This document shows positions 11,142 through 15,538 of a stretch of 64,000 bases of DNA, in pieces (position 1 is the first letter of the stretch; every line of letters begins with the position of its first letter). Below the pieces are notes generated by a model. That model was given only the letters and a program-made list of their open reading frames with translations. It made no database searches and was not told where the DNA came from. Source of the DNA: Polyangiaceae bacterium (lineage in GTDB: Bacteria > Myxococcota_A > Polyangia > Polyangiales > Polyangiaceae); contig JABTUA010000003.1 of assembly GCA_015075635.1 (NCBI GenBank), positions 682,001 to 746,000 of the forward strand. The letters are read 5' to 3'. The translations under genes were made by a program, and so were the position numbers.

Positions 11142-11145
<4 letters not shown>
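10279..11145 (+). CDS. Lipoprotein with degenerate formylglycine-generating-enzyme-like domain
   Basis: 288 residues. A short signal peptide ends in a lipobox (VLSGC). The body resembles a formylglycine-generating-enzyme/sulfatase-modifying domain: WCYMRFAGRLPTREER matches the family's 'C-W-x-G-K-RLPTEAEWE' region, and the protein closes with a VRCV motif like the usual 'GFRCV'. Several family features look eroded, and the central region is cysteine-rich and short. I infer a binding or structural role rather than catalysis, but this is not proven. It directly follows the membrane protein gene with no gap, and its stop overlaps by 4 bases the stop of the convergent activator gene. Confidence 0.72.
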
Positions 11146-12665
<1,520 letters not shown>

Positions 12666-12692
12666 ATATGAATCGCAATTAGAGCAGTATCA

Positions 12693-12708
12693 GTTGCACT
12701 AAAGCAAC
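12693..12708. promoter_or_regulatory. Candidate activator-binding site (inverted repeat)
   Basis: A perfect inverted repeat GTTGC-N6-GCAAC lies between the divergent activator and amidohydrolase genes, about 53 bases upstream of the -24 element. Position and symmetry suit an enhancer for the Fis-type activator, but binding is inferred. Confidence 0.4.
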
Positions 12709-12759
12709 ATGCCCCTCAGGCTTTCTGCGATTTCTTGGCCATTTCCGTCCGAGGAAGCT

Positions 12760-12776
12760 TTGGCACGGAGTCTGCG
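12760..12776 (+). promoter_or_regulatory. Sigma-54 (-24/-12) promoter of the amidohydrolase gene
   Basis: TTGGCACGGAGTCTGCG matches the RpoN consensus (TGGCACG-N4-TTGCW) except for C in place of T in the -12 element. The invariant GG (12762-12763) and GC (12774-12775) are exactly 10 bases apart. The predicted start of transcription (about 12787) is about 20 bases upstream of the ATG at 12806, and a ribosome site (AGGAG at 12794-12798) lies between. Confidence 0.75.
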
Positions 12777-12805
12777 TATGGGGCGGCGTCGTTAGGAGAC
12801 ACCCG

Positions 12806-15055
12806 ATGATCCGCACCCGCTCCCTCAGCCTGTTTTCCCTGCCCTTCGTGCTTTCCCTGGCGGCATGTGCCGCCGAGACGCGCGCTCCCGAGAGCGAGTC
12901 GGCGGAGCAGCAGGCCATGTCCGCCGGCGGCCTGGTGGTGAACGAGTGCTCGACCGGGAGCGGCGGCTTCATCGAGCTCTACAACGCGGGCACGGCGACC
13001 CTCGATCTGACGAACGATCCGACGAGCTGCTGGTTCGTCGACGACGTCGAGGGCGGCGGCGCCCCGAAGAAGATCACCGACAGCCTGGTGAGCCACGCGG
13101 CGTCGTCCACGACCTGCGCGGCGGCGGGACGCGCGGCGACCTGCGCGCTGGTCGCGCCCGGTGAGGTGGTCTGGGTCCCGTACTCCTACGTCAACTCGAC
13201 CACCGCCGACGCCTGCCGGCTGATCAGCTCCGCGAAGTCCGGTACGACCTGCTCCACGAGCTATGTCGCCGAAGACTCGGGCCCCACGGCGTCGAGCTCG
13301 GCCGGGCAGTGCTTCGGTCGGACCGCGGACGGCGGCAACTGGTCGTCCGCCGCGATCACCTGCAGCAAGGGTGCTTCGAACGGCCCCGCGTGCACCGCGG
13401 GCGCGGCTTGCGACGACGGGGACGCTTGCACCACCGGCGAGACGCTGTCGGCGAGCTGCGTGTGCACCGGCGGGAGCGCGCTGTCCTGCGACGACGACAA
13501 CCCCTGCACCGCGGACAGCTGCGACGCAGCCGCCGGCTGCGGCCACGCGCCCGTCGCGGACGGCACCAGCTGCGGCACGGCCATGAGCTGCTCCGCCGGT
13601 AGCTGCGTGCCCGATGCGCCTCCGCCCAGCGGCGACGCCCAGATCGTCCAGCAAGGCGCGGCCGACAAGATCCTGCTCCGGGGCACCGTGGTCACCGAGG
13701 CCGGCTTCTTCACCGGCGAGGTGCTGGTCGAGGGCGACACCATCACCTGCGTGGACGTGAGCTGCGACGGTGCCGTGCAGCAGATGAGCCCCGGGCCGAC
13801 GATCGTGGCCACGAACGGCATCATCATGCCGGGCCTGATCGACACCCACAACCACATCCTGTTCGACATCTTCGACGAGTCGGATTGGTCGCCGCCCAAG
13901 GTCTACACCAACCACGACCAGTGGCCGAACGACGCCCGCTACAAGGCGATGGTGGACGCCAAGCAGTGGCTGAACGCCGAGTACGGCTCACCGGTCAACG
14001 TCAACTGCGAGCTCAACAAGTACGGGGAGCTCAAGGGCCTGATCGCCGGCACCACCAGCATCGCCGGCGCGGCGAACCCCGCCAACAAGGCCTGCTACGG
14101 CTCGCTGGCGCGCACCATCGATCAGAGCTCGAACGACCTGGGCTACGACAAGGTCCAGGCCTCGACGCTGTTCCCGAACACCTCGAGCGCCGACGCCATT
14201 TGCAAGAACATCGCCACCGACAAGACGGACGCCTTCTTGATCCACATCGGCGAGGGCGTGGACCAGACGGCTCTGAACGAGTTCAACAAGCTCTGGACGG
14301 CGCCGACCACCGACGGCTGCCTGCACGCCCCCGAGACCTCCATCGTGCACGGCACGGCCTTCGGCGAGACCGAGTTCGACAAGATGGCCCAGCACGGCAT
14401 GGGCCTGGTCTGGTCGCCGCGCTCCAACGTGTTCCTGTACGGCTCGGGCACCGACCTCGAGAAGACCACCAACATCCCGCTGGCCCTCTCCAAGGGCATC
14501 AACGTGAGCCTGGCGCCCGACTGGTCCATCGGCGGCAGCCAGAACCTGCTCGACGAGCTGCGCTTCGCCAACCAGGTGGACGACGGGGCCTTCGGCGACA
14601 TCCTGACGGCGAAGAAGCTGTTCGAGATGGTGACGATCAACCCGGCCAAGAACCTCGGCCTGTCCAACGTCATCGGCTCGATCGCCGTGGGCAAGAAGGC
14701 CGACCTGCTGGTGATCGGCGGCGACGCCGCCGCCCCCTACGACGCGCTGCTCCAGGCCGAGCCCAGCACGGTCCGCCTGGTGATGGTCGGCGGGCGCACG
14801 CTGTACGGCGACTCGGCGCTGGGCGCCCTGGCGCCGGTCGGCCCTGCCTGCGAGGCCCTGCCGGTGTGCGGCGCGAACAAGTTCGTGTGCGTCGCCGAGA
14901 ACGGCGGCACCGCCAGCAACAAGCTCGGCCAGAGCCTCGCCGACATCGTCAGCGTCCTCTCCACGGAGCTCCAGAGCTACGACGACCAGAACCTGACCTC
15001 GTGGGACTTCTCGCCCATCGCTCCGCTGGTCAAGTGCGCTCCTTCCGGCGCGTGA
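12806..15055 (+). CDS. Secreted amidohydrolase with N-terminal lamin-tail-like domain
   Basis: 749 residues. A signal peptide ends in a lipobox (LSLAAC). The first 200 residues resemble a lamin-tail domain (VVNECSTGSGGFIELYN). A Cys-rich CDDGDACTTGE / CDDDNPCTADSC segment follows (about 210-265), typical of myxobacterial exported proteins. The rest is an amidohydrolase-superfamily barrel: metal-binding HxH in GLIDTHNHILFD (about 347-349), His in FLIHIGEG and SIVHGTAFG, and the catalytic-type Asp in SLAPDWSIGG, with the closing IGSIAVGKKADLLV motif of the ATZ/TRZ-like group. It probably hydrolyses a C-N bond of an external compound at the cell surface; substrate unknown. Expression is probably sigma-54-dependent. 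Confidence 0.9.
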   Translation: MIRTRSLSLFSLPFVLSLAACAAETRAPESESAEQQAMSAGGLVVNECSTGSGGFIELYNAGTATLDLTNDPTSCWFVDDVEGGGAPKKITDSLVSHAASSTTCAAAGRAATCALVAPGEVVWVPYSYVNSTTADACRLISSAKSGTTCSTSYVAEDSGPTASSSAGQCFGRTADGGNWSSAAITCSKGASNGPACTAGAACDDGDACTTGETLSASCVCTGGSALSCDDDNPCTADSCDAAAGCGHAPVADGTSCGTAMSCSAGSCVPDAPPPSGDAQIVQQGAADKILLRGTVVTEAGFFTGEVLVEGDTITCVDVSCDGAVQQMSPGPTIVATNGIIMPGLIDTHNHILFDIFDESDWSPPKVYTNHDQWPNDARYKAMVDAKQWLNAEYGSPVNVNCELNKYGELKGLIAGTTSIAGAANPANKACYGSLARTIDQSSNDLGYDKVQASTLFPNTSSADAICKNIATDKTDAFLIHIGEGVDQTALNEFNKLWTAPTTDGCLHAPETSIVHGTAFGETEFDKMAQHGMGLVWSPRSNVFLYGSGTDLEKTTNIPLALSKGINVSLAPDWSIGGSQNLLDELRFANQVDDGAFGDILTAKKLFEMVTINPAKNLGLSNVIGSIAVGKKADLLVIGGDAAAPYDALLQAEPSTVRLVMVGGRTLYGDSALGALAPVGPACEALPVCGANKFVCVAENGGTASNKLGQSLADIVSVLSTELQSYDDQNLTSWDFSPIAPLVKCAPSGA

Positions 15056-15112
15056 GCCCGCGAAGAGTTTGCGCGAATCCTTCGGCCCGGCGCGCGGCTC
15101 ACACCGCGTGCC

Positions 15113-15538
15113 ATGGAAATCACGCTCAGGTTCGCAGGAAACAAGCGGGTAGACGCGATCTTCGGTGATCGAGTGGTTCACACCGACCAGGGCCCCGAGC
15201 ACGGCGGGGAAGGCAGCGCGCCCGAGCCGTTTCAGCTCTTCCTGGCGTCCCTCGCGACCTGCGCTGGAGTCTACGTGCTCGGCTTCTGCCAGGCGCGCGA
15301 CCTCCCGACCGACGGCATCCAGCTGGTCCAGCGCCACGACTTCTCCGAAGAAGGACGCCTTCGGCGCGTGACCATGCAGATCAGCGTGCCCGCCGACTTC
15401 CCGAGCAAGTACGTCCCGGCTCTCGAGCGTGTCGCCGCGAAGTGCACGGTCAAGCGCGTGATCCAGGAGGCGCCGGAGTTCGTGATCGAGGCGAAGGCCA
15501 GAGGCAGCGAGACCGCGCTCGACAGAGCGGCGCTCTAG
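15113..15538 (+). CDS. OsmC-family thiol peroxidase-like protein
   Basis: 141 residues, a normal length for the OsmC/Ohr fold. The two cysteines expected for this fold are present: one in the long helix (SLATCAGVYVLGFCQ, about residues 50-64) and one in the C-terminal part (VAAKCTVKR). OsmC proteins reduce organic or inorganic peroxides with these cysteines in the cytoplasm. The sequence looks closer to the broader OsmC-like (YhfA-type) group than to Ohr, so substrate is uncertain. Start ATG at 15113. Its stop overlaps that of the convergent thioesterase by 3 bases. Confidence 0.88.
   Translation: MEITLRFAGNKRVDAIFGDRVVHTDQGPEHGGEGSAPEPFQLFLASLATCAGVYVLGFCQARDLPTDGIQLVQRHDFSEEGRLRRVTMQISVPADFPSKYVPALERVAAKCTVKRVIQEAPEFVIEAKARGSETALDRAAL

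Follow-up and report, generated by a model that had tools for sequence, protein, structure and literature searches.

Known GAF-containing activators

According to Francke et al. (2011, PMC3162934), a GAF domain is present in around 10% of sigma-54 activators (EBPs). Among described systems, E. coli NorR offers the nearest arrangement: it too is a GAF-AAA+-HTH activator encoded divergently from its target (K-12 record), which is a nitric oxide reductase. In norR-norVW, three enhancer sites are essential for activation, and the iron centre of the NorR GAF domain involves residues R75, Y98, D99, H111 and C113 (PMC2941729).

The locus described here lies in a 64-kb stretch of DNA, analysed as a whole and called the window below, and it shares much of this layout. 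Its EBP follows the class Ib plan, as judged from the translation and domain profiles: a sensory domain, an AAA+ domain with GAFTGA and an HTH. Domain order and GAFTGA are common to class Ib GAF sigma-54 activators; unlike these activators generally, the family of the window’s EBP is single-copy where found and has an operator of its own. The -24/-12 element of E. coli norV, TGGCACGCAATCTGCA, is almost identical to that of the window. Placed by the NorR motif GTCA-N3-TGAC, the centres of the E. coli sites fall about 61, 85 and 106 bp ahead of the T of TGGC; the two sites recognisable in the window are centred about 60.5 and 102.5 bp ahead of it, and congener G001 shows an additional one at about 80.5. 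Across the family, successive sites are 20–21 bp apart and keep helical phase with the promoter, a pattern resembling that of E. coli norR-norV.

There are also differences. The NorR site sequence is not GTTGC-N6-GCAAC, and the target here is a lipoprotein hydrolase instead of a nitric oxide reductase. On the number of sites the comparison is mixed: several relatives have three, as NorR does, and the window has one of 10/10, one of 7/10 and no recognisable middle site. The possibility that the EBP is NorR itself was rejected: it scores 304.4 bits against the 476-bit cut-off of the NCBIfam NorR equivalog, and the iron-site residues are missing. In an alignment read by column, R75, D99, H111 and C113 are kept in none of six EBP family members and Y98 in one of six. 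BLASTP against NorR gave a meaningful alignment in the AAA+ region only (47% over 243 aa) and none in the GAF domain. In a wider sense, the outputs of the EBP family are mostly lipoproteins, which agrees with the theme, set out by Francke et al. (2011, PMC3162934), of sigma-54 governing the exterior of bacteria; that theme is a general one and does not concern the specific circuit of the window.

The divergent control region

The EBP and amidohydrolase genes are divergent, and both control elements lie in the gap between them (Table 1). Domain profiles bear out the gene pair of the original prediction, giving GAF, Sigma54_activat, AAA lid and HTH_8 for the EBP and Amidohydro_1 for its neighbour. 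The predicted -24/-12 element is also present: its GG (12762-12763) and GC (12774-12775) are exactly 10 bases apart, and its span begins one base later than the 12760-12776 first given. The predicted inverted repeat, GTTGC-ACTAAA-GCAAC, is exact in position, and 52 bases (about 53 had been estimated) separate its end at 12708 from the element. Transcription from sigma-54 promoters starts about 12 bases past the GC, the rule used to place the start in Table 1. No sigma-70 promoter-like sites were found in 12500-15300.

Table 1. Features of the control region and the adjoining genes, in window coordinates
Feature	Position	Strand	Description
EBP gene	11142..12665	-	507 aa: GAF (about 15-155), sigma-54 activation AAA+ with GAFTGA, AAA lid, Fis-type HTH
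Distal site GTTGCCTAAAGACATA	12651..12666	+	Score 7/10; begins 110 bp upstream of the -24 element and overlaps the EBP start codon
Proximal site GTTGCACTAAAGCAAC	12693..12708	+	Score 10/10; begins 68 bp upstream of the -24 element; putative operator of the EBP
-24/-12 element TGGCACGGAGTCTGCG	12761..12776	+	10/12 consensus positions; GG-N10-GC
Predicted transcription start	12787	+	12 bases past the GC, by the spacing rule
Ribosome-binding-site-like AGGAG	12794..12798	+	Read by eye
Target lipoprotein gene	12806..15055	+	Lipobox LSLAAC (by eye), LTD-like N-terminal part, amidohydrolase domain 339-665

The control region had been called complete. The sigma-54 elements are indeed in place, but the repeat is one of the family’s phased sites and not the whole enhancer. 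A further site at 12651-12666, missed at first, belongs to an array that is plainer in relatives; its score of 7/10 is confounded by overlap with the EBP coding sequence, and its counterparts in the congeners, at 109 bp, score 8/10 and 7/10.

We read the region as a dedicated sigma-54 switch in which the GAF-EBP, acting on phased sites, would drive the lipoprotein amidohydrolase; on the sequence evidence we give this a probability of about 0.86.

An OsmC-like gene (15113-15538) on the same strand as the hydrolase gene starts 57 bp downstream of it. It was considered as an operon member and dropped because no OsmC was recognised by eye among the ORFs after the target in two congeners.

Rarity and conservation of the elements

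By single-sequence statistics neither the repeat nor the -24/-12 match is striking, and the repeat alone is not beyond chance. Of 2000 dinucleotide shuffles of the 140-bp region, 54% contain an inverted repeat whose arms are 5 bp long (p 0.54), and 0.8% contain a -24/-12 match that reaches 10/12 and keeps GG/GC exactly (p 0.008); seven matches of this latter quality occur on the two strands of the 64-kb window. The exact palindrome pattern, expected 0.10 times per window, and TGGCAC-N6-TGC, expected 0.74 times in it, were each observed once.

Comparison with other DNA carries more weight. In an alignment with two congeners the palindrome, the -24/-12 element and the leader are kept, and much of the DNA between them has diverged. 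The combined pattern, with 35-65 bases between its parts, occurs at a single place in the 9.47-Mb genome, and its reversed-pattern control at none. In relaxed form it occurs at three places, against nine in the control, and the two places outside the window have -24/-12 scores of just 7/12. Both elements are judged real because they are conserved in the congeners, because their combination is rare genome-wide and because the family evidence given below agrees. A dedicated EBP-target pair is the best reading because the only combined element found in the genome stands beside the EBP. The initial idea of an EBP beside its own target, forming a single circuit, is upheld as far as the dedicated pair goes; as a statement about the family it needs amending, since relatives of this EBP pair with other outputs. 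The extracellular substrate first suggested as its signal is a conjecture.

A wider regulon in the window’s own genome was considered and rejected: the strict and relaxed combined patterns leave the window site as the sole plausible one. Taken alone, the palindrome has at least eight exact places in the 9.47-Mb genome; an AT-rich copy at C2:1958415 (L051) showed no in-register -24/-12 within two mismatches.

The activator family

The GAF domain of the EBP was modelled with a mean pLDDT of 85.6. No ligand was called for it because Foldseek and VIA-align returned many GAF domains with similar scores, including cyclic-nucleotide, haem and methionine-sulfoxide types. A search with the GAF regions of nine EBPs matched the family in 47 of 317 class genomes, once per genome. 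A scan of named genomes gave 23 EBP loci, six of them outside the 47, which brought the members studied to 53. The recognition helix VT(L/M/F)Y(R/K)L is present in 46 of 47 EBPs longer than 430 aa.

Twenty of the 53 loci, selected by eye among the scan results, show a -24/-12-like element that faces away from the EBP gene, at 60-180 bp from the EBP N-terminus. In 16 of these 20 the best site reaches 8/10 or more; the others (G213, G063, G296 and L085) are divergent and have no site of 8/10, L085 carrying GTTGC-N7-GCAAC. In 23 further members a site of at least 8/10 and a -24/-12-like element precede a gene elsewhere: often a DUF1508 gene near the EBP gene and not divergent from it, otherwise a gene on another contig or some genes off. 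A GTTGC-N6-GCAAC-like site (at least 8/10) before a -24/-12-like element is therefore found in 39 of 53 members, a count for which G105, with GG as its -12 part, was accepted by eye; with the four weak divergent cases it becomes 43 of 53. The ten members in which no promoter was identified (G100, G101, G111, G112, G114, G115, G122, G264, G298 and G300) have contig ends, weak sites or no candidate gene, or were not followed. In genus group g105 (L228-L234, L236, L259), the -12 part is GT in 8 of the 11 DUF1508 promoters read, GG in one and GC in two.

Sites at genes away from the activator

The -24/-12 element could be a real sigma-54 promoter that is served by another EBP, its neighbour being incidental. 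Sigma-54 activation domains were matched 65 times in the genome, in some cases weakly or in split form, and the sigma-54 DNA-binding domain (rpoN) once; this leaves many candidates, and EBPs are able to act at promoters without nearby sites. We nevertheless hold this alternative to be unlikely: the HTH helix hardly varies across the family, and the palindrome tracks the family even at genes that are not divergent from it. Among the matches listed, a site of at least 9/10 stands at 14 of 25 DUF1508 genes in EBP-bearing genomes and at 1 of 16 in genomes with no EBP hit (Fisher p 0.002); with one vote per genus, among the same matches, the contrast is 5/8 vs 1/8 (p 0.12). None of the 25 genes is divergent from an EBP gene.

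The 41 genes of this contrast were picked by us from among the matches listed, with the addition of L186; G100 and G036, which have little upstream DNA, were kept in the counts, and G125 and G106 (9/10 each) were left out. The one gene with such a site in a genome lacking an EBP hit is that of G110, and in the genus group of G110 the EBP is present in 13 of 16 genomes. The DUF1508 genes at L250, L252 and L253 (G308-G310) show good -24/-12-like elements with no GTTGC palindrome and no EBP hit; they are perhaps run by another EBP.

Searched class-wide, the combined pattern has matches in 99 of 317 genomes. Most are taken as background because many genomes have as many reversed-pattern control matches (not summed). 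Five matches were picked for reading: G299, two in G262, G083 and G043. Three of them (G299 and both in G262) belong to lipoprotein genes in EBP-bearing genomes, and the one in G043 lies before a small-protein gene whose promoter is weak. In G083 (L189, G083:C860) an exact palindrome lies 67 bp before TGGCACGAGTACTGCA, ahead of an outer-membrane-like protein gene, and no family EBP was found in that genome.

Geometry of the binding sites

The sites form a helically phased array. All figures on this geometry treat related genomes as largely independent, and relatedness inflates them: across the 20 divergent regions, where the nearest genomes were weighted, the summed autocorrelation of site scores is 28.7, 45.2 and 62.8 at lags 20, 21 and 41, against 1.1 +/- 1.4, 1.0 +/- 1.2 and 0.8 +/- 1.0 in shuffles, and across a second, unweighted set of 23 promoters from 20 genomes it peaks at 174 at lag 20 (shuffles 1.85 +/- 1.93). 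The second set overlaps the 23 further members mentioned above without being identical to them; because none of its promoters is divergent from the EBP gene, its sites are free of overlap with EBP coding sequence. The averaged profile of the 20 divergent regions has a 10.5-bp component in phase with the -24 element, a level reached by none of 2000 rotations, and the 33 sites of the second set that score at least 9/10 yield R 0.78 at a period near 10.25 bp.

Measured from site start to -24 element, the ladder has rungs near 57, 68, 79, 88, 98 and 110 bp. The window occupies 68 (10/10) and 110 (7/10); its expected middle place, at 88-89, reaches 3 to 4 of 10 and does not stand out from the positions around it. 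Congener G001 has sites at 68, 88 and 109 that score 10, 8 and 8 of 10, and several relatives have three sites upstream of the promoter. Seen against this ladder, the proximal site of the window is one member of a family-wide phased array and the strongest site of that array here.

This geometry also bears on the idea that the palindrome belongs to another regulator, or serves only self-repression of the EBP, and is unrelated to activation. Such an idea draws on the divergent cases, in 14 of 20 of which a site of at least 6/10 covers the EBP start codon (start codons were chosen by hand and coding sequence is a confounder), and on G264, where the EBP gene is preceded by an exact palindrome that lacks a good adjacent -24/-12 (L118). 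It fits poorly with sites that are in helical phase with the -24 element at targets not divergent from the EBP, and we regard it as quite improbable. A mere coincidence of repeat and promoter-like match in the region, for which the p of 0.54 for the repeat would speak, is scarcely credible in view of their conservation, the genome-wide rarity of the combination and the fact that the DNA pattern by itself led to DUF1508 genes and further lipoprotein genes at other places.

Proposed circuit

In the dedicated switch that we favour, the GAF-EBP would bind GTTGC-N6-GCAAC-type sites upstream of the -24/-12 promoter. Its GAF domain would receive a signal, which we infer to be intracellular, upon which the EBPs assembled at the sites would hydrolyse ATP. 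This hydrolysis would open the sigma-54 RNA polymerase at 12761-12776, leading to production of the lipoprotein amidohydrolase. The EBP may also restrain its own synthesis through the distal site, a suggestion made because that site, like sites in most of the divergent relatives, covers the EBP start codon. The architecture of the switch is of a known type; the exchange of its output is the interesting part.

The amidohydrolase

The target protein has 749 aa and matches Amidohydro_1 at 5.8e-21. The metal pattern of the amidohydrolase superfamily consists of HxH, two further H and D, and it is found here as H348, H350, H480, H515 and D572; these residues and E402 do not vary among 12 homologues. 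By profile and fold the nearest matches are atrazine chlorohydrolase and deaminases of adenosine or guanine, the structure model being of modest confidence (mean pLDDT 61.4). Our best guess is that the enzyme would act on a small ring compound in the manner of a deaminase or chlorohydrolase. An LTD domain in the N-terminal part was not accepted, scoring 20.2 bits against the Pfam cut-off of 34.3. The product is probably a lipoprotein because a lipobox, LSLAAC, was read by eye; of the secreted hydrolase originally proposed, the hydrolase is confirmed by Amidohydro_1 and "secreted" gives way to lipoprotein.

Apparent exchange of the output gene

Within the window’s genus the amidohydrolase lipoprotein is the output in all three genomes, and DUF1508 was found in none of the three at E 1e-8, among the matches listed. 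Outside the genus, 22 of 27 amidohydrolase homologues were scanned (one without upstream DNA), and in no case do site and promoter occur together; seven show a -24/-12-like match (9 or 10 of 12) on its own, and in one a 9/10 site falls within the gene. EBP-owning genomes account for six of the 22 (G050, G022, G043, G007, G038 and G044). As the sequences compared indicate, the hydrolase is a lineage-specific output, restricted to the window’s genus, and not the usual one of the family.

Among the loci read, the commonest output of the family is a DUF1508 lipoprotein. With four DUF1508 repeats, it is the output at 8 of the 20 divergent loci; whole-protein Pfam scores are 170 to 193 bits for the five of these eight that were scanned (G043, G044, L070, L076 and L085), and G038, G213 and G296 were assigned through a DUF1508 search. 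A helix-hairpin-helix-like lipoprotein takes its place at 5 of the 20: Pfam HHH_3 is above cut-off in G245, G176 and G175 and below it in G050, and the label of G022 was given by eye, the part searched having matched P-domain. Short HicB-like proteins occur at 4 of the 20 (named by eye; no Pfam match in the three scanned), and in G059 the next gene after the HicB-like one encodes a lipoprotein that matches metallo-beta-lactamase below the cut-off. Non-divergent outputs elsewhere with a matching DNA element include DUF1508 genes, for instance in G299. Those of G262 and G095 are helix-hairpin-helix-like by eye, Pfam giving P-domain for G262 and nothing for G095; G262 has a second lipoprotein behind an element, without a Pfam match.

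In the EBP tree the divergent cases fall inside one 30-row group (100/99), with their outputs interleaved. Parsimony requires at least seven output changes among 43 labelled loci, some labels having been given by eye. The switch thus looks portable, its output gene apparently exchanged between lineages.

Two further observations concern individual lipoproteins. At L058:4185-5219 (G050), adjoining the EBP, a helix-hairpin-helix-like lipoprotein is fused to a tail like nuclease A inhibitor (NuiA-like). Faint matches to ricin-type beta-trefoil lectin, below the cut-off of 25.6 bits, occur in the DUF1508 lipoproteins at L085:5057-5842 (24.7) and L076:5067-5846 (19.8).

A broader picture, which we put forward tentatively and at somewhat less than even odds, is that of a cassette: the GAF-EBP and its phased enhancer may have been kept across Myxococcota-like bacteria while the gene they drive was swapped repeatedly. 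Each output could then be a different response at the cell surface to a signal that all of them share, for which extracellular nucleic acid or products of its breakdown are possible candidates. Extracellular nucleic acid is suggested because helix-hairpin-helix, NuiA-like, LTD-like and deaminase-like parts recur.

Biological meaning

Myxobacteria-like genomes hold dozens of EBPs, as the 65 domain matches in the window’s genome illustrate, and to our knowledge few of these have been assigned targets. One EBP family can now be tied, at the level of sequence, to a probable operator, a promoter geometry and a set of predicted surface-protein targets. In the PMC literature, which leaves most subscription papers out and so does not prove absence, we found no paper on this GAF-EBP family and no link between DUF1508 and Myxococcota. 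DUF1508, a domain of unknown function, gains a regulatory context. One enhancer placed before different output genes is a natural experiment in regulatory rewiring, and it raises the questions of which signal makes unrelated lipoproteins useful and of whether whole-turn shifts of the array are neutral and half-turn shifts are not.
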